The translations under genes and the position numbers were made by a program. Below, piece by piece: positions 42,436 through 62,813 of a stretch of DNA of 64,000 nt (position 1 is its first letter; each line of letters starts with the position of its first letter). Origin of the DNA: Chamaesiphon sp. 341R_metabat_111 (GTDB lineage Bacteria > Cyanobacteriota > Cyanobacteriia > Cyanobacteriales > Chamaesiphonaceae). The stretch covers positions 1-64,000 of the forward strand of contig JANXVE010000023.1 in the NCBI GenBank assembly GCA_025351825.1. Reading direction: 5' to 3'. Under the pieces are notes generated by a model, which did not search any database, was not told the DNA's origin, and saw only the letters and a program-made list of their open reading frames with translations.

Positions 42436-42467
42436 TAATCCGAGAATTTTAGAGGTAATGGATTAGA

Positions 42468-42917: not shown

Positions 42918-42920
42918 CAA

Positions 42921-43278
42921 AATCTCCGATTTTTGGCTAGTGGAATTAACTAAATTCTATCCCGATCGTTAATTTATTTATATTCACATCTTGAAGCTGA
43001 CTGCTGTTCTAAACAATTCTCTAATAACCAAACGCGATATAGCTTCTTAAACCTAATCGGATTAATAATCAGTGTAGCTGTCGGATGCCCGATCGGTTGC
43101 CACAAGAATGCAACCCAAGGAAATCTCACTTTAGCTGAATCACGATCGAGCATATATTTTCCAAAATCTTGTGACCTAATTCTATATTTTTAATAGAATC
43201 GGTTGAATCAGCTATTTGTCATAAATATTCCAACCCAATTCTATTAAGGCTGCTATCTCTAAGCCGATCTTCGTTTTA
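42921..43278. other. Intergenic region without recognised gene
   Basis: These 358 bases precede the recD2 remnant. I see scattered HIP1-like CGATCG words but no supported reading frame or repeat. Confidence 0.35.
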
Positions 43279-43290
43279 TTGCTACACTGC

Positions 43291-43742
43291 ATGAAATCGA
43301 TATTTATCAAACACCATTACCTTATCGTGTCAACTCCTAAGTCAAGCACACTAGATTCATCAGTTGCACCCCAAGTTTCTTTAACTGGAGTGATAGAGCG
43401 GATTACCTTTCATTCTGAAGAAAGTGGCTATACTGTCGCTCGATTGCAAATACCCCGCGCTCATGACTTAGTAACGATCGTCGGCAACTTCGCTAATATC
43501 CGAGCGGAACAGACTCTCCAACTCCAGGGCACTTGGAAAGAACATCTCCAGTATGGTCAGCAATTTCAGGTGATTAAATACAGCGAAACCAAACCTGCCA
43601 CGCTGACAGGGATTGAGAAGTATCTGGGTAGTGGCTTGATTAAATGTCGGCCCTGTCACTGCCAAACGAATTGTCGCTCATTTTAATCTGGACACTCTCG
43701 AAATTATCGAACAGGATAGCGATCGCAGCTACAACAAAGGCT
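43291..43742 (+). pseudogene. recD2: recD2 helicase, N-terminal remnant
   Basis: The frame encodes the N-terminal OB-like domain of a RecD2-type SF1 helicase: LTGVIERITFHSEESGYTVA, VTIVGNFANIRAEQTLQL, ETKPATLTGIEKYLGSGL. After a shift near 43654 it continues in another frame as VGPVTAKRIVAHFNLDTLEI and ends IIEQDSDRS. All helicase motifs are missing. It is spliced directly onto an xseA fragment, indicating a deletion between two genes. Confidence 0.8.
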
Positions 43743-43986
43743 GAAACTGGCGATCTCCAGACGATTGCAAGTCGCCCAACAAGAACAGTTAAGATTGACA
43801 GAGCGATGTCAAGCTCTCTATCCGAGATGGGTGTTGAAACGAGGATACGCACTAGTGCGGGATAATAGTGGGGCGATCGTCCGCAATAGTGAAAATTTAG
43901 TAATTGGAGCGGAGTTATCGATCCAATTTGGCAATGGTCAAGCAAAAGTTAGCATAGTTGAAATTGATGATGGCAAAGAAGACTGA
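43733..43986 (+). pseudogene. xseA: xseA (exonuclease VII large subunit), C-terminal remnant
   Basis: About 84 codons survive: LQQRLKLAISRRLQVAQQEQ, then LYPRWVLKRGYALVRD and GAELSIQFGNGQAKVSIVEI. This is the C-terminal domain of XseA with the GYALV motif. The nuclease core is absent. The frame overlaps xseB by 20 bases as in a normal xseAB operon. Confidence 0.8.
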
Positions 43987-44176
43987 GTGGAACTATGAGG
44001 CGACAGTCGCACAAGTCGAGCAAATACTAGGAGAAATTGAAGATGGCGATCTGGAATTAAACGATGTGTTCAGTCAATTTTCAAAAGCAGTGGAATCATT
44101 GCAGCAATGTGAAAATTTTTTAGCCCAACAGCGAGAACAGGTTGAATTATTACTAGAAAACTTAGTGGATACTTAA
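43967..44176 (+). CDS. xseB: Exonuclease VII small subunit
   Basis: This 69-residue helical protein matches XseB: WNYEATVAQVEQILGEIEDG then LELNDVFSQFSKAVESLQQC, a coiled-coil pair that binds XseA. It is full length or nearly so, but its large-subunit partner here is only a C-terminal stub, so it can function only with an XseA encoded elsewhere. ATG at 43967 or 43970. Confidence 0.8.
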   Translation: MMAKKTEWNYEATVAQVEQILGEIEDGDLELNDVFSQFSKAVESLQQCENFLAQQREQVELLLENLVDT

Positions 44177-44184
44177 TTCCGATC

Positions 44185-47100: not shown

Positions 47101-47586
47101 TGATGGTCTGATCCCTTGAATGTGTTCGATTAGATCGCAATAGGCACAAGTTTGGAGTAAAAACTCAGCTTTGGGACTTCGAGCTAGTTTGCACTCCAAA
47201 GGCACGTAACTCCAGTCCCCTAAGTTCGATGGAGTTTCTACCCGCACCAGGAAGTCTGCATAGCCAAGAAAGCAATCGTTTTTGAGAGCTGGTTGGTAAA
47301 TATAAGTGTGTCCCATCTGCATCGCTGCGATGGTGGCTGCATATGATCCGCGATGACCGATCGAGCAAACATCCGCCCCAGCTTCTTGCAAGGATTTAAG
47401 ATACCGTTGTTCATGCTCCTGACCGAGTTGACATAGCGCGACCAACAGGGAATCTTTAGCTCCAGGCGGCGGGCAGTCACTAGGACGCTCTAGTTGAAAC
47501 CGATCCATCCAACTGGCGAATTCACTTTGGCTGTACTGAATTAGGTCTTGAGGACTATAAACGATCACTTGATGGTTGCGTTGCAC
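44185..47586 (-). CDS. TM0106-type RecB-like nuclease fused to SF1 helicase
   Basis: This 1133-residue protein (GTG start) has two halves. Residues 1 to about 550 form a TM0106-family RecB-like nuclease: GYADFLVRVE and WSYVPLECKLARSPKAEF give the PD-(D/E)XK acidic residues and lysine, followed by an RNase-H-like YprB part, VYFDMEGYPLVSGG. Residues about 760-1120 form an SF1 (UPF1/DNA2-like) helicase: Walker [16 protein letters not shown] box LFIDEAGQMSL, motif V GTVDKFQGQEAPIL, motif VI RHRLNVAISRAQ. Such fusions process DNA ends or foreign nucleic acid. It lies 27 bases after a DEDDh exonuclease gene on the same strand. Confidence 0.85.
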   Translation of the reverse strand: MQRNHQVIVYSPQDLIQYSQSEFASWMDRFQLERPSDCPPPGAKDSLLVALCQLGQEHEQRYLKSLQEAGADVCSIGHRGSYAATIAAMQMGHTYIYQPALKNDCFLGYADFLVRVETPSNLGDWSYVPLECKLARSPKAEFLLQTCAYCDLIEHIQGIRPSEFQLLLGDGEIQSHSTEQYFYYYQQVRKSFLEFMAAFDSDRMPLPAPGEHGQWQSYAEQMLLDRDHLSQVANITRSQISKLEEAGIKTFQQLATTDPQATIPHLNPVIFHRLATQARLQQATIQKGQVQYQIIPLLPDESPRGLATLPPPSILDVYFDMEGYPLVSGGLEYLFGAISVPNGQFHDWWAHDLPAEKLAFEQFIDWVYHRWQQDPHMHIYHYAAYETIALKRLMSKYATREHQVDNLLRAEVFIDLFQIVRQGLFVGQPSYSIKKLEPLYGRQRSEEVKNALDSVVQYFDWIQSSEGNRPNLSPILAEIRDYNRVDCESTEELVNWLRGIQVEHSITYVSKSHDTPAAAPEKLDEADVLAAQLLATSEDQSPAASRIQTLLAHSLLFHKREAKPFWWQRFEWLEADEADLYTELDCLAGLERTDRPPFKPTPKSRSLAFEYHFDPQETKLKDGTSCWFSPEQKQKGCKLDSLDLQQGTVSISISEKTLKDIQQQEPGWEPPNRTSLVGCNFIKTTELSNSILETVKDWSESNTLQPALQNFLDRESPRIQDVTSGHPLISKNEDLLAATTRIVANLHQSTLCIQGPPGSGKTYTCAQTILHLLKMGKSIAVCANSHQVITNLMGRVAKCAIEAGFNFQAAKIGGDKEDEIFQYPTIKFRDSIKDTSPPIYQMVGATAFQLCRAEAVEKFDYLFIDEAGQMSLANLLAIARCAHNLILIGDPMQLEQPIQATHPGESGQSALNYFLNGLDTIPEHLGIFLDTSYRMHPSICQPISEAIYEGRLQSAQQTHTHCITTLVEPNGSQGNGILFIPVAHRDNQQSSKEEVDAIDQLIAKLLGHSFTSDRGKRQSTIQAEDILIVAPYNLQVRKLQDRLGNRARIGTVDKFQGQEAPILILSMSSSSSETAPRGLEFLFNRHRLNVAISRAQCLSIVVGSPALAKTLCSTLEQARLVNLFCKITNSFQR

Positions 47587-47613
47587 GAGAGATTTTGGGG
47601 GTATGGGGGAGAG

Positions 47614-48312
47614 CTACGGAGAACTGGGAATCTTGACCACTGAAAAAGGCAAATCTTTTGTATCTGCTTCAAGCATCCGGCGAGTCCATTCTTTTCGGTC
47701 TGGATTCCATTGAAAGCCTGCTTGTTTGGCTAGATCTTTGTTTGGATAAGAAACTTGTGCTAGAAATAGAGCTTTCGGGCGTTTAGCTTCCTCTATCATC
47801 GCCTCAAGGTTTTCCATCCGATCGAATAAGGCTGCAATCAGACTGCAATCAGTTAACGCACGATGAGCCGAACTGACTCCAATGCCGTGATTGAGAGCTA
47901 GGCTGACTAGATTTTCTCTAGGACGAGTTTGGTAAGGGAAAGAAAAGTCTTCGAGGGTACAGAGCCATTCAAGCGGTTTCCCAGCACTAGTACTGAGGAT
48001 GGGTAAATGATGTCCGTCAAACCATTCCCGATCGAACGCTGCGTTGTGAGCAATAACATAATTAGCACTATGAGCTAAATACTGGAGCAGATCGATAAAA
48101 TGTTGCTGAGTTTTCGTACAAACTTCAGGTAGTACAGCGGGAGGAATCCGGTTAATGTGTTCGGCGGCATTATCGTTGGCATTGAGTAAGGTGGAGAGTT
48201 GAAAAAGCGTTGTACGATGAGGGACAGAGTAGAGGATCGCTGCGACTTCGATCATTCGATGCTCCTCTACTTTCAGTCCGGTTGTCTCAGTATCGACGAT
48301 CAGAAGCTTCAT
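47614..48312 (-). CDS. DnaQ-like DEDDh 3'-5' exonuclease
   Basis: This 232-residue exonuclease has the ExoI motif VDTETTGL (Asp7, Glu9), the ExoII region NYVIAHNAAFDREWF, and the ExoIII AHRALTDC (His and Asp). The C-terminal 40 residues (ALFLAQVSYPNKDLAKQAGF, WNPDRKEWTRRM) form the small add-on domain also seen after ExoX-type nucleases. It is transcribed with, and immediately upstream of, the helicase-nuclease gene, suggesting joint action on DNA. Confidence 0.87.
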   Translation of the reverse strand: MKLLIVDTETTGLKVEEHRMIEVAAILYSVPHRTTLFQLSTLLNANDNAAEHINRIPPAVLPEVCTKTQQHFIDLLQYLAHSANYVIAHNAAFDREWFDGHHLPILSTSAGKPLEWLCTLEDFSFPYQTRPRENLVSLALNHGIGVSSAHRALTDCSLIAALFDRMENLEAMIEEAKRPKALFLAQVSYPNKDLAKQAGFQWNPDRKEWTRRMLEADTKDLPFSVVKIPSSP

Positions 48313-48355
48313 TTAAAAACTATCACAAACACATTTTTAAGCAGGGTGAAAAAAA

Positions 48356-51300
48356 CTACACTTGCTCATTTAGATCTGGTAGCGAATTAATAATCTTCAC
48401 TGTTTCAATACTTACCCGCACAATCCGCTTAACTAAATCAACGATGTAGCGCGGATCTTCTGACCAATCATTTGGGTCATTAGTAATACCACTCTCTTGT
48501 TCTTTTGTTACCTGATAACGTTCCATAATCCACTCCAGAGCAGATTTGCCATTCACTATATACTGATAAGCTTCTAACGGTATTTCAAATAAAGTGAGGT
48601 GATTGTTATAGACAATCGTTGTTTTGTCTATAGTTTTATCGCGCCGCCCAAAATTCATTTTAGAAACCCGATAATATTCAACAGCATCGATAACCAGTTC
48701 TTTTTGATATTCCTGAAGTGGGTATGGTTCGATAGTTTCATAGTTCAGGTGCCATTGAGCTAGTTGTCTGCCAGCTTTACTAAATGCCCAGAAGTTTTGA
48801 GCATAGGGAATACGAGGCAACATTTTTTTCAGATCGGATTCAAAGCGTCGCTTATATTCAGGTGAATGAAGAATGCCATAGATATAATAAAAAATATCCT
48901 CTTTAGTAATTGCTGGATCTTTATAAGTTTTCTTAAAGTCAGTCAGAATATCATCAGGGATATTTTCTTTTTTAATATAATCTTCATTAAGATCCTTCGT
49001 CAATAAAGACAATTGATCTGTTTTGGGCTGTTTTTCGTATGAATAAAGTGGGAAGCATTTACTTGTATCATGCAAATGAAAATCTGGTAACACATTTATT
49101 ATTAATGCTGAAAAATCTTTACTTGCAGCCTTTCCAGTAATACAAATCAACAAGTTGTCAGATTTACCATTCGGTATAAAAGCTGGTATTTCTCCTTGCC
49201 TTTCGTTGAAAACATGGCTAAAGTATATTTTTTGTTTGCAATATGGTCTGTACATACCAATTGATACATTTCTTGATTCATGCTGATGAATTCTCTCTCG
49301 TTGAATGTCTTTTTTTAAATCGGCAGACCAACTAATTTTGCTAGGATCGTTATCAATGAATTCATCTAAGTTTATAGTATTCTTCCGTCTCTGAAATTCT
49401 TTAAGTTGTCCATTATAAAAATCAATCATTCTTATGATATTACTATTCAACTTGTCTTCAGAGAAGTTATAAACCCAAGGATCTCTATTGGTTTTAACTC
49501 CATTTGAATACAAATTAAAAACAGATTTTGTATTTTCCTTATCACCTAGCGAAACAAACTCATCAAATATCGGATCGCGCTGATTAATCCAGTCATAACT
49601 GGTATTTTGAACAAGAGATTTCCATTGAATACCATTACTACTATCGAATTTAGTGATAATACTTAGCTTTTCTTCACGACTCAAATAATCACCAATATCA
49701 TGATAGAAAAGCTTGCATTTATCTACTACTTTATCTGGATTCTTAATAAGCATAATAATGGCAATGCTTGCACGGCTTCCAGAACCAAATATTTTGCCAC
49801 CTTCCATCCGTGAAGTTTCACCAGATGTACGTTGATTTCCACGTAAGTTAAAGCAGTAAATACTAGTAAATTCATCAGTCAAACATTTTCGCAGTCCATC
49901 AGCCGAGTTGCTATCAATAAATGAGCCATTAATAACATAGCAGATAATTCCTTTGTCCTTAATCCGATCGCTTGCCCATCGAATCGCTCGAATTTCAGAA
50001 CTGTACAGACTAGTTTTTAAGGTTGCCGTTGAGTGTTCAGCATAGGTTCGTCTGATTCGTTCATCTAACTGAGGATACTTTAAATTTTTATTGCTATCAT
50101 TTTCACTGTTCTGACCCGCTGAATAAGGTGGGTTGCCAATAATCACTCGAATATCATTTTGTTTTTGACGATTCACACGTTGATTGTTTTCAGGAAACAT
50201 TAACTTGTCTAGCGTCCCATCACCCTCAAACATTTGAAAGGTATCAGTTAAGACAATCCCATCAAAAGGGATGTAGTCTCCAGCCAATGCACCATGATAA
50301 GCCCCCTCAATGTTCACCGCTGCAATGTAATAAGCCAGTAAGACAATTTCATTAGCATGGAGTTCCTGATTAAACTTCCGTGCTAAATCCTCTGGCTTAA
50401 TCAATCCACTTTGCAGTAATCGCACGATAAAAGTACCAGTTCCAGTAAACGGATCGAGAATGTGAACGTTTTCATCAGTCAATCCCACACCAAACTCTTG
50501 TTTGAGGGCATCATCAGCACTCTTAATGATGAAATCCACTACTTCTACAGGCGTATAAACGATACCTAACCGTTCTGCCATTCGAGGGAAAGCATTGCGG
50601 AAAAACTTGTCATACAGCTCGACAATAATTCTTTGCTTACCTTCCGCATTGTCGATTCCACTAGCACGATCCCTTACACTGGCATAGAACTTATCCAATG
50701 TTTTTGTTTCTTTTTCAAGAGCTTGTCCTTCCAATAAATTCAGCATCTTTTGCATAGATACCGATACGGGGTTTTGTTGCGTGAACTGATAGCCCTCAAA
50801 CAAGGCATCAAATACGGGTTTAGTAATCAAGTGCTGGGAGAGCATCTCGATTGCATCGGATTCACTCACGCTGGGGTTTAGATTACTCTGTAGCCCCTCC
50901 AGAAAATCATTGAATGCTGCGCGATGTTCCAACGCCGGATCGTCAAGCAAAGCCTTAATCCGTGTGGTGTGTCTTTCAGCGATCGTCGCCACATCCTTTG
51001 CCCAATCTTCCCAATAACGACGATTGCCACATTTGACAACAATTTTTGCATAAATAGCGTCTCGCCATTCTGTAAGATGTGGAAAATTCAACGTTGTCTG
51101 AACTGGTCTTGTTGAATCACCTTCACCTCCTCCCTCATTATCGTTATCCCCACCAACACCAAGGATCCCAATTTGGGGAGGTTTACCTTTATTGAGTTCT
51201 ATTTTATTGATAGTCGCATTGAATCGATCGTCATGAGCGCGTAACGCTTGTAAGACTTGCCAAACAACTTTATATCTTTTGTTGTCCTTCAAAGCCTCTT

Positions 51301-53113
51301 CTGGAGTCATATCAGAAGGAATTCCGATCGGTAAGATAATGTAGCCATATTGCTTCCCTTCAGATTTTCGCATTACTCGCCCGACAGATTGCACCACGTC
51401 TACGACAGAATTGCGCGGCGTGAGAAACATAACAGCGTCTAATGATGGAACATCAACACCTTCAGACAAGCAACGGGCATTAGAAAGGACTCGACAGACA
51501 TTACCAGCATCAGCTTTGAGCCAATCCAACTTTTGATTGCGCTGGAGCGAGTTAAATGTTCCATCAACGTGCTGTAATTCGCAGTTCAAAACATCTTCAT
51601 CAGGATGAGTTTGACGGTATTCCTCAATAATGCCTGCAAATAAATCTGTAATTCTTTTAGAATCTTTAATCGAGCGGGAAAAAGCTACAGCCCGACGCAT
51701 GGGTGCTGAATCCTTTTTGATTTCATCTCCATCAACTTCAGTTGCCATTCGCTTGGAAAGTCCATTCCAGCAACCAGTTATTTTGACAGCATCTTCTAGG
51801 CTAAGTTCATTGTCGGTATCGGAAATTTGTCTCTGAAAAGCTTTGCTGACATACTTTTCATCAACAGCTAACACCATTACTTTATAATCGGTCAATAGTC
51901 CACTGCTGACCGCTTCCGAAAATCCCAGACGGTGAAACTCTTGCCCATAGATGCTTTCATCATCCATCGAACAAAGCATTGCATCATTTTCTTGCGCTTG
52001 AGTTCTTGTGCCATCATCGTAAAGTTTGGGAGTGGCGGTCATGTAAAGCCGTTTCTTGCTCTTGATAAAATCTTGATTATGCACTCGAACAAAATAAGAT
52101 TCATCATCACCCTGCAATGTTATTCCGGTAGTGCGATGAGCTTCATCACAAATAATCAAGTCAAACTCTGGTAAGCCCTTTTTCTGTGCGTCAGCAATCG
52201 CCTGAATGGATTGATAGGTTGAGAAAATGACTGTGAGTTGCTTTTTTCCCTCAAAAACCTTTACTCGTGCTGCGATCGTATCAGCATCTGTTGTAGCAGG
52301 AAAGGCAAGATCTCTGGCGTTAATATCTTCATTCTCTGACTCTCTAGCTACCTTCGTATCAGAACAAACTGCAATGCTATGCAGTGTAACGGTCGCTTCT
52401 GCCGACCACTCCCGTAACGTCTGAGATAATAAAGAAATTGACGGCACTAAAAATAAGATATTCGCATTGTCAATGTTGAGAGCAAATTGTTCAGCTATCT
52501 TCAGGGCTGTATAAGTCTTTCCCGTGCCACAAGCCATAATTAGCTTACCTCGTTCAGATTCATTAAACCCAATTATTACCTTTTCGAGTGCAATACTTTG
52601 GTGAGTTCTAATTTCCTTCTTCGGCTTGAGTTTAATATCTTGAGGACGCTTATTGCTGAAAGTAGCCCAATTAATGGGGCTTTCTTCTAAGTCACGAGTC
52701 AGCAATCTAACCACAGGAATCTGTTGATTATTTATCGCCTCTTCAGCATTTTTACCCCACTTGTCAGTAGTGGAAATAATCATTCGCTTCTTAAACAATG
52801 ATTTTCCTGAAGCAGTGAAAAATGAATCGATATCGGATTTGTCTAAAGTATGCTTCGGGTCATAAAATTTACATTGAATCGCCCAGTAATCTCCTGTGGC
52901 GTTCTCTTGAGCAACTAGATCGATACCTGTATCGGGAATGTCACCTCTTAGTGGGAATTCCATCCACATCCAAACATGACTGAACAAATCTTGGTATATG
53001 GGATCGCATTTCATAAAAGCAACCATCAGACGCTCGAACTTGTCGCCGAGATCGCGGTTAGAAGTTGCAGCCTGTCTAAACTCTTCAAGAATGGTGTGGA
53101 TAGTCGTAGTCAT
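48356..53113 (-). CDS. Type ISP restriction-modification enzyme (single chain)
   Basis: This 1585-residue protein has the LlaGI/LlaBIII layout. An Mrr-like PD-(D/E)XK nuclease (Asp65 in TGIDLVAQE, Gln80-Cys-Lys82) is followed by an SF2 helicase (MACGTGKTYTALK, IICDEAHRTTG, VGRVMRKSEGKQ). A gamma-type N6-adenine methyltransferase comes next (motif I ILDPFTGTGTFIVRLL, motif IV NPPYSAGQ), then a C-terminal target recognition domain. One chain cleaves and protects. Length agrees with known Type ISP enzymes (about 1570-1580). All catalytic motifs are intact. An XRE regulator lies upstream on the same strand. Confidence 0.93.
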   Translation of the reverse strand: MTTTIHTILEEFRQAATSNRDLGDKFERLMVAFMKCDPIYQDLFSHVWMWMEFPLRGDIPDTGIDLVAQENATGDYWAIQCKFYDPKHTLDKSDIDSFFTASGKSLFKKRMIISTTDKWGKNAEEAINNQQIPVVRLLTRDLEESPINWATFSNKRPQDIKLKPKKEIRTHQSIALEKVIIGFNESERGKLIMACGTGKTYTALKIAEQFALNIDNANILFLVPSISLLSQTLREWSAEATVTLHSIAVCSDTKVARESENEDINARDLAFPATTDADTIAARVKVFEGKKQLTVIFSTYQSIQAIADAQKKGLPEFDLIICDEAHRTTGITLQGDDESYFVRVHNQDFIKSKKRLYMTATPKLYDDGTRTQAQENDAMLCSMDDESIYGQEFHRLGFSEAVSSGLLTDYKVMVLAVDEKYVSKAFQRQISDTDNELSLEDAVKITGCWNGLSKRMATEVDGDEIKKDSAPMRRAVAFSRSIKDSKRITDLFAGIIEEYRQTHPDEDVLNCELQHVDGTFNSLQRNQKLDWLKADAGNVCRVLSNARCLSEGVDVPSLDAVMFLTPRNSVVDVVQSVGRVMRKSEGKQYGYIILPIGIPSDMTPEEALKDNKRYKVVWQVLQALRAHDDRFNATINKIELNKGKPPQIGILGVGGDNDNEGGGEGDSTRPVQTTLNFPHLTEWRDAIYAKIVVKCGNRRYWEDWAKDVATIAERHTTRIKALLDDPALEHRAAFNDFLEGLQSNLNPSVSESDAIEMLSQHLITKPVFDALFEGYQFTQQNPVSVSMQKMLNLLEGQALEKETKTLDKFYASVRDRASGIDNAEGKQRIIVELYDKFFRNAFPRMAERLGIVYTPVEVVDFIIKSADDALKQEFGVGLTDENVHILDPFTGTGTFIVRLLQSGLIKPEDLARKFNQELHANEIVLLAYYIAAVNIEGAYHGALAGDYIPFDGIVLTDTFQMFEGDGTLDKLMFPENNQRVNRQKQNDIRVIIGNPPYSAGQNSENDSNKNLKYPQLDERIRRTYAEHSTATLKTSLYSSEIRAIRWASDRIKDKGIICYVINGSFIDSNSADGLRKCLTDEFTSIYCFNLRGNQRTSGETSRMEGGKIFGSGSRASIAIIMLIKNPDKVVDKCKLFYHDIGDYLSREEKLSIITKFDSSNGIQWKSLVQNTSYDWINQRDPIFDEFVSLGDKENTKSVFNLYSNGVKTNRDPWVYNFSEDKLNSNIIRMIDFYNGQLKEFQRRKNTINLDEFIDNDPSKISWSADLKKDIQRERIHQHESRNVSIGMYRPYCKQKIYFSHVFNERQGEIPAFIPNGKSDNLLICITGKAASKDFSALIINVLPDFHLHDTSKCFPLYSYEKQPKTDQLSLLTKDLNEDYIKKENIPDDILTDFKKTYKDPAITKEDIFYYIYGILHSPEYKRRFESDLKKMLPRIPYAQNFWAFSKAGRQLAQWHLNYETIEPYPLQEYQKELVIDAVEYYRVSKMNFGRRDKTIDKTTIVYNNHLTLFEIPLEAYQYIVNGKSALEWIMERYQVTKEQESGITNDPNDWSEDPRYIVDLVKRIVRVSIETVKIINSLPDLNEQV

Positions 53114-53446
53114 GAATGATGCAACCCTAGAAGTTTGAAGATCGGCGCACTCATTGATAGGATGTCGCTAAATCTTTAAACACTAATAGCATGATTTCAT
53201 ATACATTTTGCTTGAAATTTAGTAATAGTAGTCTGGACTACACGTAAATTAGACCTGTCAGGGGCTGTTTAAGAAACAGATCTCGCAGTCTACTCGATCG
53301 AGATTCCTCTTCTGCCCACTTCGATGGATCTAGATAGACCCCTCTGTTGAAATAAATGGCTATTTTCATTAGAGCTAAATTCATCGCATTCGTAACAGAA
53401 AATACTTATGAGTCCAAGTCATGAGAATTTAGTATCTAAAAATCCT
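53114..53446. other. Spacer between XRE regulator and Type ISP gene
   Basis: These 333 bases hold no reading frame I can support. CTGTTT-AAG-AAACAG at about 53266-53280 is a small inverted repeat that could be an operator. The promoter of the restriction gene should lie here, on the minus strand. Confidence 0.4.
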
Positions 53447-53704
53447 TTACCCCAAATCGTCAGCAGTCTTCCCATCTCCTTGCGCGATCGACTCCCGAAC
53501 AGCCAGATCCAACTCTGCGATCGAACATTGATACAACAGACACAACGCCGCAGTCTTATCGATCGAGAGTGTTGGAATCGTGCGCCCCTTTTCCCAATTG
53601 CGTACCGAAGACTCAGCCACACCAATCCTACTCGCTGTATCAACCGTGCGGAGTTTGACTCTGAGCCGCAGTTGTTTCATATTCATGCCAATTACGTTAT
53701 CCAT
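53447..53704 (-). CDS. XRE-family HTH regulator
   Basis: This 85-residue protein (ATG at 53704) is a single Cro/C1-type helix-turn-helix: KQLRLRVKLRTVDTASRIGV, ESSVRNWEKGRTIP, and a C-terminal helix. TATAAT on the minus strand at 53744-53749 makes a good -10 for a start at 53704, so the longer frame to 53794 is probably not translated. Its place upstream of the restriction gene on the same strand suggests a controller (C protein-like) role. Confidence 0.75.
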   Translation of the reverse strand: MDNVIGMNMKQLRLRVKLRTVDTASRIGVAESSVRNWEKGRTIPTLSIDKTAALCLLYQCSIAELDLAVRESIAQGDGKTADDLG

Positions 53705-53935
53705 TGGATTTAGCGCAATGGGTTGACGTTTAGATCTAGCATAATTATAATAAGTAGAACTAACCAGCGAATCGACTGCCAGGAAGAATCGCAATTACAA
53801 ACGTCAACCTCTTGCGAGGTCAAAATCCTATGATGACACGACAGCGCAGGCAATCGATAGTCTAAACGCATAAAAAATCAGGTATTACAAGTAATTAAAT
53901 AGTACTAGCAACGCTTCTGCATCGAAATTAGAACT

Positions 53936-54442
53936 ATGACCGCATCGGAAACAGAGCATTTTCAGCAGATGTCCAAATCGGCTTGGCAACAACTCCACCA
54001 AGCAGTTATCAATTTGTCTCCTCAACACTTTTCAGGAGCCGATCGCCAACAATTGACTATTCTCCTGATTCAGCAATTAAGTCATAATTTACAAGCCCAA
54101 AACCTAGCGGAGTTCTGGAATCATTGCCAAGAATATGGTGAAGCCGTTGACAGGATCGCCAACGAATTGTCGAGACTACCGCCGACACTCGAATTTGTCG
54201 ATCGATTACCCGCTAATTGCTTCAGCCCTGGAGCCTATGTGCGCTGGAAACCACTGCCAGAAGATTCAGACGAAACCGACACCGGAACGATCGTTGGTAG
54301 CTTCTATGCACCCTCACAGCGGGGCTGGAACTGGAAATATCTAGTGTTGCTAGATCGATCGAGTTATAGTCGGCAGTTTTGTATCGCCGATACCGCCTGG
54401 GAATCAGATTTAGAGGGATGGCAGAGAAAGCAATGCCACTGA
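53936..54442 (+). CDS. Hypothetical protein (168 aa)
   Basis: This unrecognised soluble protein has a helical N-terminal half (SAWQQLHQAVINLSPQHFSG) and a beta-rich second half with GAYVRWKPLPEDSDETDTG and GWNWKYLVLLDRSSYSR, possibly an SH3-like fold. It overlaps the next gene by about 10 bases, so the two are coupled. It diverges from the XRE gene. Confidence 0.5.
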   Translation: MTASETEHFQQMSKSAWQQLHQAVINLSPQHFSGADRQQLTILLIQQLSHNLQAQNLAEFWNHCQEYGEAVDRIANELSRLPPTLEFVDRLPANCFSPGAYVRWKPLPEDSDETDTGTIVGSFYAPSQRGWNWKYLVLLDRSSYSRQFCIADTAWESDLEGWQRKQCH

Positions 54443-54735
54443 ATATTCCTCGTAGATTGGGGCAACGAGAAATCGACTTAATCGAGCAACTTGCTCACTG
54501 TCAGCTAGAAATGACACCTCGCCAATTTGAAGCTAAATGGGATGTCGATCGATCTCAAATTGCCGCTTTGTGTCACTGTTCCTTGGGAAATGTCAAACGG
54601 TGGTTCAAGACTGATGAAAACTATCGATCGCCAACCAAATACCATCGACGTTATCTCGCGCTCTCAGATTTGTACTTAGAACACTTCGAGCGACTACCCT
54701 TAGAACTCCAGCAGCTAATTTGTATCGAGCGATAG
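54433..54735 (+). CDS. Cyanobacterial HTH-domain protein (about 100 aa)
   Basis: The product (ATG at 54433; 54418 is possible) starts MPLNIPRRLGQREIDLIEQL and contains EAKWDVDRSQIAALCHCSLG then VKRWFKTDENYR, a helix-turn-helix. Close-looking proteins occur on many cyanobacterial chromosomes and plasmids. It overlaps the 168-residue protein gene and precedes the DUF262 gene by 75 bases, so it may regulate it. Confidence 0.6.
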   Translation: MPLNIPRRLGQREIDLIEQLAHCQLEMTPRQFEAKWDVDRSQIAALCHCSLGNVKRWFKTDENYRSPTKYHRRYLALSDLYLEHFERLPLELQQLICIER

Positions 54736-54810
54736 GTCGAATCTTTACAAAAAAGGATCGTTCCGATCCTAATTAAGTATATAAGTGCGTCTCGATCTAC
54801 GACAGGAATT

Positions 54811-56601
54811 ATGCTGAGAAGAGGTTATCAGAAAATAGTAGCTATGAACTCAATCGGTATGTTCGATAACACGAAAGAATCTCTCGGCGACTTGCTCGAA
54901 GAGATCCATACTGGCAAAGCTCAACTGCCGGATCTTCAGCGGAGTTTCACTTGGTGCAACGAACAAATCGTTAAACTAATTGCCAGCATGTCTCAATCCT
55001 TTCCGATTGGTGCAATTCTCACCATTAAAGTCAGTAACAACAGTAGTTTTACTTTCAAGCCACGACTGCTCGAAGGTGTTCGACTCAAAGAAGAACCCAT
55101 ACCCGATAGTCTGATCCTAGACGGACAACAGCGGCTTACTAGTGCTTACATGTGCTTGCGTTCTGGTTCGGCAGTGAGTATTCGAGATCGCCAAACCCAC
55201 AAAATTCAAGAGCGTTGGTACTATATTGATATTCCAGCCGCCCTCAATCCAGAGATCGAGCGAGTAGATGCTATCATCTCACTGCCCCGATCTCAAACTC
55301 AGAAAACGAAACATCGCAAAATAGATTGCACCACTGCCGAAAAAGAGTACGAGCAATTACTATTTCCTGTCTCTGCCATCTTCAACTATGTTCAATGGCG
55401 CGAAGGATTTCAGAAATACTGGGACTACGAGCCGGAAAAATTAGCTCTTGCCAGACAATTTGAATTAGAGATTGTCAAAAGATTCGAGCATTATCAATTG
55501 CCAATTATTCAATTGCGTCCAGAACTGTCTAAGGTAGCCGTTTGTCAGATCTTTGAAGATATGCACGAAATGCCTACTCCCATGACCTTCTTCGACCTCA
55601 TAACCGCCTGCTTTGCTGCTGAAGACTTCTCACTGCGGGATCATTTTGCTGGTGTCAGCCAGCAGTTATCTAGATTTGGCATACTTCAGGGAGTGCGGAA
55701 TACTGATTGGTTGTCAGCAGTGACTTTAGTTGCTACTTATCATCGTCGAGAGCGAGTGCTGAAGCAGAATCCGCTCGTAACTCAATTGCCAACGGTAGGT
55801 TGCGGCCGTCAGAATATTCTCAATTTGGAATTAGCGGATTATCAACAATTTGCACCAATGACATTGGCAGGTTTCGAGCAGTCTGCAAAATTCTTGCATA
55901 GTTTAGGATTCGTCCATTCTGAAGATATTGCTTATCCTAGTCAGTTACTCGCTTTGGCATCAGTACTGGCAATTGTTGGGTTGCCTAACGATCTGGGACG
56001 TACTCAATTAGAACAATGGTGGTGGTCGTGTTCGTTTGGTGAAGTCTATAATAACTGGCAAAATAAATGTACAGCCACTGATACGATCGAGATTCCGCAA
56101 TGGTTAGCTGGCGGAAATACTCCGAGTAATCTCGATTCGGCACATTTCAATCGCGAACGTTTATTGCAAGTGACCCGACGACAGGGTGCAATTTACAAGA
56201 GTTTGAACGCACTATTACGCAAACAGGGTGCAATCGATTTTGTCTCTGGGGAAGTACTGAGGGATGTCAAAGCATTTGATGGAGAGATTGAATCTCATCA
56301 TGTGTTTCCCGAAGCTTGGTGCAAGCGGCAGGGGATTCCAGCCGCTCGATACAATTGTCTGCTAAATCGGACTCCATTGAAAAGAGATACGAATCGCTTT
56401 ATTGGTTTTCAGCCGCCATCAGTGTATTTGGCTCGATTGATAGAGGAGCAGGGAATCGTTAAGAAAAGAGTAGACGAGATTTTGCGATCGCACTCGATCG
56501 AACCTCAAACATTGTGGAATGATGACTTCGATGCTTTTTTAGATTCGAGATTGAAAAATCTGTCTCGATCGATCGAGACGGCGATGGAGCCATCTATCTA
56601 G
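54811..56601 (+). CDS. DUF262-HNH protein, GmrSD-like type IV restriction candidate
   Basis: This protein of up to 596 residues has a ParB-like DUF262 domain near the N-terminus (LPDLQRSFTWCNEQIVKLIA, then the hallmark LILDGQQRLTSAYM). It has a C-terminal DUF1524/HNH nuclease-like part (EIESHHVFPEAWCKRQGI, YNCLLNRTPLKRDTNRFIG). The combination is that of GmrSD-type NTP-dependent enzymes that cut modified phage DNA, and of related anti-phage proteins. AGGA lies five bases before ATG 54811; starts at 54844 and 54859 are alternatives. Confidence 0.82.
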   Translation: MLRRGYQKIVAMNSIGMFDNTKESLGDLLEEIHTGKAQLPDLQRSFTWCNEQIVKLIASMSQSFPIGAILTIKVSNNSSFTFKPRLLEGVRLKEEPIPDSLILDGQQRLTSAYMCLRSGSAVSIRDRQTHKIQERWYYIDIPAALNPEIERVDAIISLPRSQTQKTKHRKIDCTTAEKEYEQLLFPVSAIFNYVQWREGFQKYWDYEPEKLALARQFELEIVKRFEHYQLPIIQLRPELSKVAVCQIFEDMHEMPTPMTFFDLITACFAAEDFSLRDHFAGVSQQLSRFGILQGVRNTDWLSAVTLVATYHRRERVLKQNPLVTQLPTVGCGRQNILNLELADYQQFAPMTLAGFEQSAKFLHSLGFVHSEDIAYPSQLLALASVLAIVGLPNDLGRTQLEQWWWSCSFGEVYNNWQNKCTATDTIEIPQWLAGGNTPSNLDSAHFNRERLLQVTRRQGAIYKSLNALLRKQGAIDFVSGEVLRDVKAFDGEIESHHVFPEAWCKRQGIPAARYNCLLNRTPLKRDTNRFIGFQPPSVYLARLIEEQGIVKKRVDEILRSHSIEPQTLWNDDFDAFLDSRLKNLSRSIETAMEPSI

Positions 56602-56798
56602 TAAGTGAGTTTGTGTTCTGACTGCTGCTGATTAGAGAGGCTCTCCCGCCCATGTAGGGCAAATGGGGTGAAATGTAGCATTTTCCAGCGAACATCTTCC
56701 GGCACCAATCCAGTTTTAGGTGCTCCGAAACTCGCCAGGGTTATGTTCAGAATGCAAGTCAACGCTATGGCGGTACCAGAACTTTAGAAAGGCTATAT

Positions 56799-58103
56799 CT
56801 ACAAATCACTAAATATACCCACCGCACGCTCAAAATTTACCTTACAAATTCCAGTAGGCCCATTTCGATTCTTTGCCACATGAATTTCCATCAGCCCTCT
56901 ATCCTTAGTCTGAGGATCGTAGTACTCATCTCTGTACAGTAACAGCCCCAAGTCCATGTCTTGCTCGATATCACCCGAATCTTTGATATCAGCCATCCCA
57001 GGACGTTTATTATTTTGACCTTCTACGCCACGATTGATCTGTGCTAAAGCTACGAATGGGCAGTCAAACTCCTTTGCCATATCTTTGAAAGCTCCCGAAT
57101 ATTTCCCGATCGTCTGCGCTCGATTTCCGGCTGCTCGATCGCCTAATTTCTGAATGTAATCCATAACAATCAACCCGATCCGCCCATGTTGAGAACGGAT
57201 GCGCCGAAGATTTGAACGCATTCGTGTAACTGTCTGAAGTTCGGCAGGAGTATCATCAATAATGATTGGTAATTGCTTAACGACTCCCAAAGCTGTTTCT
57301 AACGTCGGTAGCTCACTCTTGTAGATCTTATTAGTAATTAACCGTTGAGAGTCGATCCCTGAATAAATGGACAAAAATCGCTTGATAATTTGCTCTTTCG
57401 ATGATTCTGCACTGAAGAAGACAACTGGTAAAGCTAAATTAGCTGCTACATGATTAGCCAGATGACATCCCAACCATGTTTTACCCATTGAAGCTCTGGC
57501 AGCTACAACGATTAAATCTTTAAGAAGCATTCCGCCAGTAAGTTTGTCTAAGCTTTGAATTCCCGTCGAAATAGTCGGTGATTCTCCATGTTGAATTTTA
57601 CTCCAAACATCTGCAAAACATTCATCAATCGTTTGGGGCTTAAAGCGATCTGTTTGATGTTGGGTTATCTCAAAAATCTTCCCTTCCGCCTTTTCCAGCA
57701 CCACGTCTAGCTCGTTCGTCATATCGTAGCTTTGCTCTGCGATCTCCATTCCTGCTGCAATTAATTGACGACGTTTATACTTACTTAAGACTAATTTGGC
57801 ATAGCCATCGACATTAACACTAGAAACAGCCGTATCCATTAATCGAGTTAAGTAAGTTCTACCACCTACTTTTTCTAGCAGCTTATGTTCCTCCAGCCAA
57901 TTACTGACAGTGATGAAATCGACTGTAATCTCCTTTTGGTAAAGATCGATGGCAGCATGGTAAATCTCTTTGTGAGTAAGTGCGTAAAAAGCTTCCGCAG
58001 GTAGAATGTCAATCGTGCGCTCGATTGCGTTAGCATCAATGAGAATAGCACCTAAAATGTGACATTCTGTTTCAATTGCTTGCGGTGGTGTTTTATCAAT
58101 CAT
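56799..58103 (-). CDS. DnaB-type replicative helicase of the element
   Basis: This 434-residue protein has the DnaB N-terminal domain (AIETECHILGAILIDANAIE) and the RecA-like C-terminal domain: Walker A ARASMGKTW, Walker B LIVMDYIQKL, the H4-like QINRGVEGQNNKRPGMADIK and the arginine-rich end. It lacks an intein and is shorter than many cyanobacterial chromosomal DnaBs. It overlaps the TnpC-like gene by 8 bases at the end of the recombinase operon, so it belongs to the element. This suggests replication of the excised circle. Confidence 0.88.
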   Translation of the reverse strand: MIDKTPPQAIETECHILGAILIDANAIERTIDILPAEAFYALTHKEIYHAAIDLYQKEITVDFITVSNWLEEHKLLEKVGGRTYLTRLMDTAVSSVNVDGYAKLVLSKYKRRQLIAAGMEIAEQSYDMTNELDVVLEKAEGKIFEITQHQTDRFKPQTIDECFADVWSKIQHGESPTISTGIQSLDKLTGGMLLKDLIVVAARASMGKTWLGCHLANHVAANLALPVVFFSAESSKEQIIKRFLSIYSGIDSQRLITNKIYKSELPTLETALGVVKQLPIIIDDTPAELQTVTRMRSNLRRIRSQHGRIGLIVMDYIQKLGDRAAGNRAQTIGKYSGAFKDMAKEFDCPFVALAQINRGVEGQNNKRPGMADIKDSGDIEQDMDLGLLLYRDEYYDPQTKDRGLMEIHVAKNRNGPTGICKVNFERAVGIFSDL

Positions 58104-58992
58104 TCTGATTAAAGATACTGCTTATATTTTTAAGATCTTCAAGGCTTGCCAGTTCTTCTTCTTCTTCCTCCACCACAATTGCAATCGCTTCTATGACGGT
58201 ATCGATTGTCTCAGTATTGTTAATAGGCTGATTTTTTGTCCATTCCGACTCGATTGCATTCGATAACCAACCTTCAGGACTTCTGATCGTCTCACCTCTT
58301 TGGTAGGCTAATTCAATCGCCTGTTCGAGAGCTTCAATCGCATCAATCGTTACCCGATTCGGTTTAGAGGCAATCTTCTCCATCAAGGAACTGGTAATTT
58401 TGACAGACATTGCCTGTAGCGTATCTAAATGAGGTTGCAACTCATCTTTTCGTCCACCAGGGAATGAAATGAGTTTAGATTTGGACGGCACTGTGTTGGT
58501 GATAGAATTCTTAGCCTCTTCTACTGGTAGTTCGAGAGCAGTTTGTTTGAGGCTTTCTAACTGTTGGCGAAGTTTTTTATTCTCATCTTCTAATCTTTTT
58601 CGATTGCTTTCAGATAGTTGTAGCTGTGGAGCCAGAGAATAAGCAATCTTTATTTTTGCTGACAGCTCTTTATTTTCGTTCTCAAGCTGTCCGATCCGTC
58701 GTCTGAGGATGTCGATCGTACTCGATTGAGACTCTAGACTCATTTTTCCTTTAGGATTAATTGGAGTCTTTGGAATCACTTGTTTCCGCAAGTGGGCAAT
58801 TCGCTCTCTCATGTCTGGCTCATCATACAACCAAGCCTTAGAGACTCCAGCGGCTTCGGCAACTGTATTGAAGTTAATCCGCTGTTTATCTTTGATTAGC
58901 TGTTGGATTGCCTTCTCTGTTCTCTCAATCGTCTCTGCTCGTTTTTGTTGAGCATGGGCTTTTAAGCCCTCAGTATTCCGTTCAAGCTTCAT
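58096..58992 (-). CDS. tnpC: TnpC-like protein with C-terminal extension
   Basis: This 298-residue protein begins with a TnpC/DUF6262-like domain: ERTEKAIQQLIKDKQRINFN, then TVAEAAGVSKAWLYDEPDM, a helix-turn-helix. A coiled coil follows (about 85-150, QLENENKELSAKIKIAY). Tn554 TnpC is only about 125 residues. The extra C-terminal half contains ALEQAIELAYQRGETIRSPE then GWLSNAIESEW, resembling segments at the end of replication or helicase-loader proteins, and an acidic tail. It overlaps tnpB by 11 and the helicase gene by 8 bases. Confidence 0.78.
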   Translation of the reverse strand: MKLERNTEGLKAHAQQKRAETIERTEKAIQQLIKDKQRINFNTVAEAAGVSKAWLYDEPDMRERIAHLRKQVIPKTPINPKGKMSLESQSSTIDILRRRIGQLENENKELSAKIKIAYSLAPQLQLSESNRKRLEDENKKLRQQLESLKQTALELPVEEAKNSITNTVPSKSKLISFPGGRKDELQPHLDTLQAMSVKITSSLMEKIASKPNRVTIDAIEALEQAIELAYQRGETIRSPEGWLSNAIESEWTKNQPINNTETIDTVIEAIAIVVEEEEEELASLEDLKNISSIFNQND

Positions 58993-60913
58993 GCTTAACC
59001 TCCAACCCGTTAATAATTCTCATCAGGTTATCTCTGACAGGAATATTCTCTTTGAGGATTTCTTTGGATCTGCGACTATCAGGATTCTGCAATGCCCAAT
59101 CGATAATCCCATTGACACGCTCTAAATGTTCGTGATGCTTGGTTAAATAACGGCGATCGGTTTTAAAGTGAGTACAGCCAGAGCCATCGTTACCTGTCAG
59201 ACATTTATTCGATCCCCACGGACAAGAACCTTGAACCACTGGGATGGCACATAACCCATTGGGCAGAGCTTGGGCGAGGGTATTTTTCTTCAGCCATTGC
59301 GAGTCGATATCGTTGGGATCTAACCCTGCTGCCATCTCTACTTGCAAAGATTCGGGGGTAACGATATTGCCAGTTACATTGACCAATTTCTCTTTGAATT
59401 CAAAAAACTTGGTTTTCATCGTTTGGTCTAAGATTGTCGCGTAGGTTGCTGTCATTTCGGGGCTGGCATGACCGAGAAACCGCTGTACTATATGTTGCGG
59501 TACACCCAAGTTAATCATCCGCGTACCAACGGTATGTCTGAATTGATGCGCCTGGAACCGCCAGACTTTTCCAGCATTGTTTTTAATCTGTTCTTTGTAG
59601 CTCAATCGATTCAGTGCATCTCCAAAATAATCCTGCTTAAACGACCTGGGTTTTTCTTCGTCAGGATAGACAAATAAGTATGGGCTTTTTGTACCAAATT
59701 TATCTCGAATAATCTGTTGCTGCTCGATAATTACGCCTACTAATTCTGCTGAAATTGGAATAGTATGATCTTTCTTTTGTTTACCTTGATAATACTTGAG
59801 AAAATAATCGCCCTCGGCATCGCGCAATAAGCAGTCATAGGGGGTACTGCATAGCTCACTGACTCGCATTCCTGCCTCTTGAATTACCAGCAGCATCCGC
59901 ATAATCACATCGGGTAACTTATTGATATGCTGGTTTAACGTTGCCATTACTTCTTCAGGAATATACCGTGGCAGAGCTTTTTCGATTCTAGGATAATCTT
60001 CTCGATAGATTAACCGTCGATCGGGAATAGCCATCCATTCCTCTCTGGCACATAGTTCAAAGAAATGCTGAAGGGTGCATACATGGTAATGTCTGGTGGC
60101 AGATTTTAAACCAGTTTGGAGTAACTTGCTAAAATAGTCTATAACTATTTGTCTATCGATCGAGTCTGGTGTAATCTCCTCATAATTAGTCAGTAAGTGT
60201 AACGAGAAATCTTTGATAATTCCAAGTTTTCTTTGACTGTTAGCCCATGAATTGATAGTAATATTGTAACGTAAGTATTTTCTTGCTGCCTCATACAACC
60301 AATTTTGATTGATACCTACAAAATTCATCGTATAATCACTGCGAGATGAACTCGTTGGAATCCCTAGCTTTAACGCATTCCACATTTCTTTGTCCCACTC
60401 ATCTCTTTCGTCATAGTCCTCTTGCAATACCTTGTAGATAACGCTTAAAAGGATGTTGTCTGGATTGTTTATTTTGTAAGATACTAATTCATTATTTTTA
60501 TTAAGTTCTTGCTTGATCTGTTCTCTCAATAGCCCATGTTCTAGCAGATAAGTACGGAACAGAATTGCCCATTGATTCAATGGTCTTTCAAGAAGTGAAT
60601 TATTGTTTGGAGCAACTGTATTGATAAACTTACATAATTTAGCAAGATGTTGTCCATTTTTCCAACAGCTAGTTGCTGTCCATTCTCCTTTCACTAATTT
60701 CTGCCAAAAAACATATTTCAGCTCCATATTTAAAATCGATGATTTGCAAGTAAATCGATTCGCCTTAGTTAAACTAAAGTGTCCTCGATCTACACCTCCC
60801 GTTTTAATCGGGCAATCGCCAAAGACCCACACATCCTCAGCCCAGTAGCCTTGTACCTTGCTTAATAATTCTTCTTGTTTGTTTCTAGTCCACTGGATCT
60901 GGAGTTCGGTCAT
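58982..60913 (-). CDS. tnpB: Tyrosine recombinase, TnpB of Tn554 type
   Basis: This 643-residue integrase has its catalytic core in the middle: MRVSELCSTPYDCLL (first Arg), HQFRHTVGTRMINLGV (His-x-x-Arg) and LGHASPEMTATYATI with the nucleophilic Tyr. A C-terminal extension with CPWGSNKCLTGNDGSGCTHF (probable zinc site) and a helical tail is characteristic of TnpB in Tn554-like elements, whose length (about 630) also agrees. It overlaps tnpA by 29 bases. Confidence 0.9.
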   Translation of the reverse strand: MTELQIQWTRNKQEELLSKVQGYWAEDVWVFGDCPIKTGGVDRGHFSLTKANRFTCKSSILNMELKYVFWQKLVKGEWTATSCWKNGQHLAKLCKFINTVAPNNNSLLERPLNQWAILFRTYLLEHGLLREQIKQELNKNNELVSYKINNPDNILLSVIYKVLQEDYDERDEWDKEMWNALKLGIPTSSSRSDYTMNFVGINQNWLYEAARKYLRYNITINSWANSQRKLGIIKDFSLHLLTNYEEITPDSIDRQIVIDYFSKLLQTGLKSATRHYHVCTLQHFFELCAREEWMAIPDRRLIYREDYPRIEKALPRYIPEEVMATLNQHINKLPDVIMRMLLVIQEAGMRVSELCSTPYDCLLRDAEGDYFLKYYQGKQKKDHTIPISAELVGVIIEQQQIIRDKFGTKSPYLFVYPDEEKPRSFKQDYFGDALNRLSYKEQIKNNAGKVWRFQAHQFRHTVGTRMINLGVPQHIVQRFLGHASPEMTATYATILDQTMKTKFFEFKEKLVNVTGNIVTPESLQVEMAAGLDPNDIDSQWLKKNTLAQALPNGLCAIPVVQGSCPWGSNKCLTGNDGSGCTHFKTDRRYLTKHHEHLERVNGIIDWALQNPDSRRSKEILKENIPVRDNLMRIINGLEVKHEA

Positions 60914-62006
60914 GCTGTTCTCGCTTATCTAGATAACTTTTATATGCTGATTTCATGTCTCGATCGTCCAAATGTATGTAGGCATCGATCGTTGTTTGAA
61001 CGTGAGCGTGTCCGAGTCGTTTTTGGACATAGGCGGCATCCCAGCCGCTGCGAAAGAGGTTGGTAGCGTGAGAATGTCTAAACTGGTGTGGATGTGCCTT
61101 AATGCCTGTTCTCTGGTTTAATCGGACGAATAATTCAGCTACCGTTCCATATCGCATTGGTTCGCCGATTTTGCCCTCCCATAGGTTGACAAAGATATAG
61201 TCGCTTTCACAATCTTGAAATTCTTCGAGAGTATAGGTCGAATACAAATCCATTAAGTCTTTCGTCACATCAATTGGAAGTGGATCTTTACGTTTGGCTC
61301 TTGCCCCGTTGAGGTTGTCATCACGGGGAATCACAGTGATTAAGTTTTGATATGTTTTGATATCGCTATGTCTCAGCCCCAAAGCCTGACCGATCCGAAT
61401 GCCACTCTCGTACATCAGGGCAATGAGAAATTTATCCCGCAGCCGATGACAAGCATCGATTAGTGTCCTAACTTCCTCTTCTGTCAAAGTTTTGGGCTTT
61501 TTTTTTGGTTCTTGAAGTTTGAGTTCTTTGACTTTAGTGGGTTTGCCGCCATTGATGTGATGAAGAAAATCCTTAAATTTCTTGGGTTGGCGTTTGTGTT
61601 TATAAAGTGGAATATTCTCGACAGTGCCCATGTCTTCTTGAAAGTCATAGAATCTGCCTACAGCGGTCAAGATCGCATTGACCGTGGTTTCTCTACGTTT
61701 GAGTTTTTGAACGGCTTGGTTGCCCGACCTTGCGCTCAATGAGATAACTTTTTCGGGCGATAACCTCAGCCATTCGATGAATCGAGCGAGATCGTCGATT
61801 TTTACTTCTGTCCACAATCGATTGCTGATTTGAAGATATTCCCAGTACAAGCGCAAGTGGTAGGCATAAGACCTGACCGTGTTTGGACTGCGTTCACATT
61901 TGTCCATGTAGCCTAGAAATTCAAGAATCGGCATGATGGGTGTGTGATTATCGTCTAGCACCATCCAAGTCGTTCTATCGTCTTGCCAAATTTCCTGTAC
62001 CTGCAT
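60885..62006 (-). CDS. tnpA: Tyrosine recombinase, TnpA of Tn554 type
   Basis: This 373-residue integrase has a SAM-like N-terminal domain (CERSPNTVRSYAYHLRLYWE), the first catalytic Arg in SGIRIGQALGLRHSDI, HQFRHSHATNLFRSGW, and LGHAHVQTTIDAYIHL with the nucleophilic Tyr. Length and opening match TnpA. It is the first gene of the four-gene operon, and its promoter lies within 120 bases of the right end of the element, so excision can place it next to the left end. Confidence 0.9.
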   Translation of the reverse strand: MQVQEIWQDDRTTWMVLDDNHTPIMPILEFLGYMDKCERSPNTVRSYAYHLRLYWEYLQISNRLWTEVKIDDLARFIEWLRLSPEKVISLSARSGNQAVQKLKRRETTVNAILTAVGRFYDFQEDMGTVENIPLYKHKRQPKKFKDFLHHINGGKPTKVKELKLQEPKKKPKTLTEEEVRTLIDACHRLRDKFLIALMYESGIRIGQALGLRHSDIKTYQNLITVIPRDDNLNGARAKRKDPLPIDVTKDLMDLYSTYTLEEFQDCESDYIFVNLWEGKIGEPMRYGTVAELFVRLNQRTGIKAHPHQFRHSHATNLFRSGWDAAYVQKRLGHAHVQTTIDAYIHLDDRDMKSAYKSYLDKREQHDRTPDPVD

Positions 62007-62132
62007 AGGCTTTCGTTTACTTTGCTTACTATGATGAATAGCCTACATTAATTCGTCCACTATGTAAATATACTGAGGAAATGTTGTTGTTGTTTACTTT
62101 ATTGACTAATATATAAGGACTGTTGTTAATTG
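62007..62132. other. Right end of the element and attR
   Basis: The end carries two similar words, CGTTTACTTTGCTTAC (62027) and TGTTTACTTTATTGAC (about 62091), and a GTTGTTGTTG run, plausible arm sites for the recombinases. The tnpA promoter must lie here too. The element ends at TTG (62130-62132), after which comM resumes with GTCGGTGGC. Confidence 0.65.
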
Positions 62133-62813
62133 GTCGGTGGCGGTACCTTTCCCCGTCCTGGGGAGATTTCCCTCGCCCATCGGGGCGTACTATTTCTCGA
62201 CGAGCTGACAGAATTCAAACGCGATGTGCTAGAATTCCTGCGCCAACCGCTAGAAGATGGACACGTTACGATCTCCCGCACCCGTCAGTCTGTCTCCTTC
62301 CCCGCCCAATTTACCCTCGTTGCCAGCACCAATCCTTGCCCTTGCGGTTACTATGGCGATACGATTCAGGCTTGCACCTGTAATCCCCGTCAGCGTGAGA
62401 ATTATTGGGCAAAGCTATCTGGCCCACTAATGGACAGAATCGACCTGCAAGTGGCCGTAAATCGGCTCAAACCAGAAGAAATTACCAACCAACCCACAGG
62501 CGAAAATTCGGCAACAGTCCGCCCCCGTGTCCAAGCAGCACGAGACAGAGCAACCGAGCGATTCCTCTCAGTACCCACCATCGTCTGCAACGCCCAGATG
62601 CAAAGTAGAGAACTACGAACCTGGTGTCCATTGGACGATAATAGTCGGCAATTATTAGAAACAGCCATTCGGAAACTAGGACTATCAGCCAGAGCTAGCG
62701 ATCGAATCATCAAAGTAGCCAGAACCATCGCCGATCTCGCCAGTACCGATCGAATTGAACCCACCCATATCGCCGAAGCAATCCAATATCGTACAATCGA
62801 TCGAATGCAATAA
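62133..62813 (+). pseudogene. comM: ComM/YifB AAA+ ATPase, 3' part
   Basis: The last 226 codons of comM begin VGGGTFPRPGEISLAHRGVL with the Walker B FLDELTEF. They continue through RQPLEDGHVTISRTRQSVSF and the Cys-rich STNPCPCGYYGDTIQACTCN to the C-terminal helical domain. In frame it follows SGPAL at 35350. It lacks its own start unless the TTG at 62130 is used. Alone it lacks Walker A and cannot hydrolyse ATP. Confidence 0.93.

Follow-up and report, generated by a model that had tools for sequence, protein, structure and literature searches.

The closest described relatives of the locus considered here are transposons of the Tn554 family, in which two tyrosine recombinases, TnpA and TnpB, and a DUF6262 protein, TnpC (about 125 aa in Tn554), are encoded by a single operon at one end of an element that inserts cleanly into one gene. 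A second set of comparisons is offered by the GInts and by the strand-biased circularizing integrative elements (SEs), the latter encoding IntA, Tfp, IntB and Srap (PMC10214605); Srap of the SEs and GinD of the GInts are described as counterparts of TnpC (PMC10214605, PMC5385486). According to the accessible parts of the 2023 SE paper, Srap is essential for recombination, and a copy-out mode is proposed in which recombination of one strand at the ends produces a figure-eight that needs replication (PMC10214605). The same parts name no element-encoded replication factor for copy-out, and they present the Tn554-related elements as reported from Staphylococcus and Enterococcus only, with their mode of movement untested (PMC10214605).

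The locus analyzed here lies on a cyanobacterial contig (G000:C14), and the window, namely the whole stretch of 64,000 nucleotides that was studied, contains a comM-inserted element, at one end of which tnpA, tnpB, tnpC and a gene for the replicative helicase DnaB form a codirectional block with overlapping ends:

35351..62132, no strand assigned: Tn554-like element (26.8 kb), whose flanks when joined give one uninterrupted 516-aa ComM frame
34481..35350, plus strand: N-terminal part of the target gene comM/yifB (TIGR00368 positions 1-280; flank join)
62133..62813, plus strand: C-terminal part of comM/yifB (TIGR00368 positions 279-499)
60885..62006, minus strand: tnpA, tyrosine recombinase, 373 aa (PF00589, 7.7e-34; R, HxxRH and LGH..Y motifs)
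58982..60913, minus strand: tnpB, large tyrosine recombinase, 643 aa (PF00589, 1.8e-25; catalytic motifs present)
58096..58992, minus strand: tnpC, DUF6262 protein, 298 aa (PF19776, 7e-17)
58096..58103, minus strand: overlap of the tnpC stop and dnaB start, ATGATTGA, 8 nt (from the sequence; recurs in relatives)
56799..58103, minus strand: dnaB, replicative helicase, 434 aa, ATPase motifs intact (TIGR00665, 436 bits against a cut-off of 385)

The order tnpA-tnpB-tnpC is that of Tn554, the R, HxxRH and LGH...Y motifs are kept in both recombinases, and joining the flanks of this one element indicates that comM was split cleanly after codon ~290, with no target duplication. What distinguishes it from the Tn554 family is a TnpC with an added C-terminal half and a DnaB-linked tail, the dnaB gene that follows, the cyanobacterial host and comM as the target. 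The likeness to the SEs and GInts, drawn from gene order and published description, lies in the dnaB-bearing relatives of the window element, which often have three recombinases and a TnpC in the same order (e.g. L072). However, the accessible parts of the SE and GInt papers report no helicase (PMC10214605, PMC5385486), and the window has two recombinases, both with their motifs, and no third, catalytically altered recombinase-fold protein of the Tfp/GinC kind. In the three-recombinase dnaB elements (L072, 2830-7197), the two larger recombinases seem to have altered catalytic motifs, reminiscent of Tfp/GinC. A precedent for a replicative helicase on an integrated element is the DnaB of SPI-7-type integrative islands (NF040583), but the window DnaB scores 317 against the cut-off of 655 for that family, and its gene is overlap-coupled to a transposition accessory gene.

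Several further observations concern the element and its target. Related elements have hit comM repeatedly, splitting it at codon ~223 in one case (L046) and near codon 250 in another (L039), and in a third locus (L102) a dnaB fragment adjoins a comM fragment. Near the distal end of the window element, a tRNA-like sequence lies on the minus strand at 35450-35520 (T-arm GGGTTCGATTCCCATGCCGTCCA), for which neither ARAGORN nor Rfam at its gathering threshold gave a report. Between dnaB and this end, at 43279-56601, lies a defense-looking cargo that includes a type ISP restriction-modification enzyme, a GmrSD-like protein and a TM0106-type nuclease-helicase.

The element DnaB has the N- and C-terminal domains, the ATPase motifs and an equivalog-level score. 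The 8-base overlap with tnpC to which the original prediction had drawn attention is indeed there, and it is not a chance feature because exactly 8 nt are shared in 20/30 tnpC-dnaB pairs of the cyanobacterial set. All 32 element-type DnaBs (32/32) fall into a single clade (support 100) that is separate from the chromosomal, plasmid and other DnaBs included for comparison. The genome from which the window comes has a second element-type dnaB, truncated by the start of a contig; the frame upstream of it ends in LQQLSTIFNQKHE and again overlaps it by 8 nt. The host chromosomal DnaB (L037, 4781-8054, G000:C58) is a 1091-aa frame in which the matches to DnaB fall into three separate pieces, the pattern that two inteins would produce.

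A search based on TnpC across 390 cyanobacterial genomes recovered relatives in 24, and among the loci examined only the window had a dnaB nearby, a result which, taken alone, would count against the idea of helicase coupling. A scan based on DnaB changed this picture: run over genome contigs with DnaB patterns only, it yielded 36 DnaB relatives, 30 with near-full-length genes, and in 29 of these 30 nearest near-full-length relatives from public genomes a tnpC gene precedes dnaB. The sole exception (L070) has its start adjoining a transposase remnant at a contig start. The hosts include Cyanothece, Okeania, Iningainema, Calothrix, Nostoc, Fischerella, Chamaesiphon, Symplocastrum, Mojavia, Hyella and others, and the pair also occurs on plasmids of Stanieria PCC 7437 and Chondrocystis NIES-4102. 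The search for the pair in other elements, as originally proposed, thus found it in some of the Tn554-like and SE/GInt-like elements across the Cyanobacteria, and these patterns in the genomes support the view that in this subset tnpC and dnaB are inherited together as a conserved pair. At the same time, dnaB marks a minority, even if widespread, subclass: most TnpABC relatives are devoid of it, which implies that an own DnaB is dispensable for the family and speaks against a mechanism built on it.

TnpC has the following parts:

58651..58974, minus strand: DUF6262 domain, residues 7-114 (Pfam; AlphaFold model with a helical, HTH-like N-terminus and a coiled coil)
58243..58449, minus strand: domain common to O/DnaD-like replication initiators, residues ~182-250, containing GETIRSPEGWLSNAIESEW (profile matches in replication-initiator-like proteins)
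58099..58167, minus strand: DnaB-linked C-terminal tail, residues ~276-298, EEELASLEDLKNISSIFNQND (tail model separating TnpCs with and without dnaB)

TnpC matches PF19776 with 62 bits against a cut-off of 29, placing it in the DUF6262 family, but the 110-position model covers residues 7-114 only, leaving more than half of the protein outside the domain. AlphaFold predicts a helical N-terminal part, a long coiled coil and an ordered helical domain (pLDDT about 88-90), then a disordered linker at 255-278 and a short helix at 284-295 (pLDDT about 78); with a low pTM of 0.32, the model does not give the mutual arrangement of these parts. A fold search of the PDB with the whole model or its C-terminal half returned no match below E 0.001. 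Nor does TnpC have a PHROG match, a winged-helix replication domain at its N-terminus, which is the DUF6262 domain, or a Pfam match to the AAA+ domain of DnaC/DnaI loaders or to DciA (PF05258).

The segment GETIRSPEGWLSNAIESEW, which the original prediction had singled out as loader-like, is present in the extra half of TnpC and falls within the middle domain (residues ~182-250). Profile searches with TnpC matched this domain alone in cyanobacterial proteins of roughly 300-430 aa with a different N-terminus, at E about 1e-9 to 1e-18, and 4 of the 8 scanned match PHROG families for 'replication initiation' or 'DnaD-like helicase loader' (L165 most strongly, at 1.6e-33; L163 and L175 weakly). 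Two such initiator-like proteins are near ParA-like genes, and 10/13 share with the dnaB-less TnpCs a distinctive terminal domain, the 'W-tail' described below, the 7 kb examined being free of dnaB. Phage and plasmid O-like and DnaD-like initiators, which are often encoded beside dnaB, have in common with the TnpCs a ~65-aa domain and the W-tail, as well as the placement of an adaptor gene directly upstream of dnaB, although their N-terminus is winged-helix-like, as opposed to the DUF6262 domain of TnpC. By contrast, both the middle domain and the W-tail are missing from all the partners encoded upstream of other mobile-element DnaBs (8/8); several of these partners are O-like. The LxxAIxxxW segment also recalls the YxxxIxxxW motif of DnaD (PMC4909229), a likeness we mention as a remark; the host genome yielded no match to DnaB_2/DnaD (PF07261). 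Searching the PDB by sequence with one O-like relative led to nothing of use. In one cyanobacterial genome, several initiator-like proteins with the TnpC-type C-terminal domain occur inside about 90 kb (L171-L174, G025:C1:4.80-4.89 Mb). On these profile matches, the C-terminal half of TnpC looks like an initiator-derived helicase-recruiting module. The loader-like reading accordingly holds as to the kind of domain but not as to a particular tie to DnaB, because TnpCs without dnaB carry the middle domain too (22/30, beside 31/31 of those with dnaB).

What does track dnaB is the very end of TnpC. Those accompanied by dnaB have a C-terminal linker followed by (E/K)LxSxxxLxxLSxIF (the 'D-tail'), whereas in 22/30 of those without it there is another terminal domain, FxxWWxxAxxxGLV...WxPF (the W-tail), the rest stopping early. 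Using models that leave out each N-terminal cluster, with 0.5 bits as a pass and with relatives included in the counts, the D-tail was recovered in 29/31 TnpCs with dnaB and in 0/30 without; in the two misses (L071 and L088) the motif is visible by eye, giving 31/31. The W-tail model matched 0/31 TnpCs with dnaB. Nine plasmid TnpCs are all consistent with this pattern (9/9), two having a D-tail with dnaB, both on plasmids originally found through DnaB, and six a W-tail and one no tail, all without dnaB. When the presence or absence of dnaB is mapped on the TnpA tree, 7 changes are required, of which well-supported branches force 5, so that it switched at least five times; among the 5 independent pairs, the tail changes together with dnaB in either four or all five (p 0.0625-0.125, five pairs being too few to reach 0.05). 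Hence, judging from these comparisons, the DnaB-specific part of TnpC is its last ~25 residues, and a cognate pairing of TnpC tail and DnaB is well supported by sequence. That the D-tail is present only alongside an element-borne DnaB suggests that the elements themselves supply the helicase with which DNA copying begins as they move.

Two kinds of elements illuminate the place of dnaB in this system. First, Calothrix PCC 7716 has a 6,715-bp stretch in two copies with 100% identity (L072, L073) and a 5,381-bp stretch in two copies with 99.9% identity (L093, L095). The repeats start about 110-130 bp before tnpA and end about 120 bp after dnaB, and in both we see recombinase genes, tnpC and dnaB and no other gene. 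Because these minimal, recently copied transposons contain nothing else, dnaB in the dnaB-bearing subclass is, by gene content, core rather than cargo. This bears on the notion, prompted by the restriction- and defense-like cargo of the window element, that this DnaB is directed at the host or at phages, for instance by interfering with their replication, as a defense or maintenance gene: dnaB sits within the recombination operon, apart from the cargo, and is retained when cargo is absent, making such a role very improbable. The original prediction had instead envisaged an excised form that recruits its own helicase and replicates. In a plasmid-like version of this, TnpC would be the initiator at an element origin and load DnaB, and the circle would be kept in several copies. 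An initiator-like C-terminal half and an own helicase are what this would call for, but all copies examined are integrated and no circle is known. Copy-out fits better since the minimal elements lack genes for partition, a primase and a separate initiator, and we regard plasmid-like replication as unlikely.

Second, tail and helicase travel together. In the MAG PMM_0019, the TnpAs of two elements (L082 and L088) belong to different clades and the upstream parts of tnpC are dissimilar, yet the two elements are 91% identical over the stretch that begins 79 nt ahead of the tnpC stop and runs to the end of dnaB; the exchanged unit, as delimited by this alignment, is exactly the last ~26 tnpC codons plus dnaB. 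A second and weaker example is the window, whose TnpA falls inside a clade that is otherwise devoid of dnaB (11/12 rows, support 99). The window DnaB, on the other hand, groups with those of Nostoc L074/L075 (support 91), the TnpC ends being EEELASLEELKVLSSIF in Nostoc L074 and EEELASLEDLKNISSIF in the window. That the unit reaches only so far into tnpC could mean that dnaB is a passenger, with the common tnpC end carried along for the translation start signals of dnaB, whose ribosome-binding signals would lie there. However, in three Nostocaceae elements (L085, L086, L089) a DNA methyltransferase-like gene of 425 aa lies exactly between tnpC and dnaB, its ends overlapping on both sides and the two genes being 1.26 kb apart, and the D-tail is retained, as it also is with gaps of 2 and 60 nt. 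Moreover, codon position 2 varies least (0.29 as against 0.51 and 0.58), and dnaB is the sole non-recombination gene in the minimal elements. We therefore give the passenger explanation hardly any credence.

Taken together, we favor, with a probability of roughly 60%, a Tn554/SE-like tyrosine-recombinase transposon that has its own helicase as part of the movement machinery, in which TnpC recruits the cognate DnaB to the recombination intermediate for copy-out. Here, TnpC would serve as an adaptor: its N-terminal DUF6262/coiled-coil half would act with the recombinases at the element ends, and its C-terminal half would be the helicase-recruiting module, comparable to the O- and DnaD-type initiators of phages and plasmids, with the last ~25 residues as a tethered short helix that docks the DnaB made beside it through translational coupling. 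Once the ends have recombined, TnpC would put DnaB on the exposed single strand, and the resulting fork would copy the element out as a circle. Docking of TnpC and DnaB, helicase loading and copy-out replication are steps that we infer from the patterns above. The middle domain resembles initiators at the level of profiles, the PDB having given no fold match, and copy-out is itself a proposal for distant relatives; both points weigh against this mechanism. The tail-DnaB pairing is also compatible with any role that bridges to DnaB, such as one in target choice, wherein DnaB would tie the recombination complex to replication forks and direct integration into replicating DNA. We find this improbable: comM is hit by the window element and by family members both with and without dnaB, target choice not being obviously dnaB-dependent, and the host DnaB would be a simpler means of tethering to a fork.

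If own-helicase copy-out holds, the TnpCs without dnaB, with their different last domain, would recruit the host DnaB, which is perhaps what the W-tails serve. More generally, we propose tentatively, and at somewhat less than even odds, that in tyrosine-recombinase transposons the accessory proteins of the TnpC type act as adaptors to the replisome and that their C-terminal helicase-docking tails are exchangeable, one class of tail docking the DnaB of the element and the other that of the host. In the open-access literature on Tn554 and DnaB, on tyrosine recombinases and DnaB, and on DUF6262, outside which most subscription papers fall, we found no description of the pair; hence, it is likely, though not certain, that the TnpC-tail/DnaB pair is new. 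Its significance lies in the question of how copies of Tn554-, SE- and GInt-type elements are made: natural helicase-bearing operons along with a short, exchangeable TnpC peptide provide a direct handle on the missing step. If the tails are indeed exchangeable helicase-docking devices, transposition of the Tn554/SE/GInt type would include replication as an inherent step directed by the element, and the TnpC tail may reveal a modular signal for the recruitment of DnaB outside oriC in cyanobacteria.
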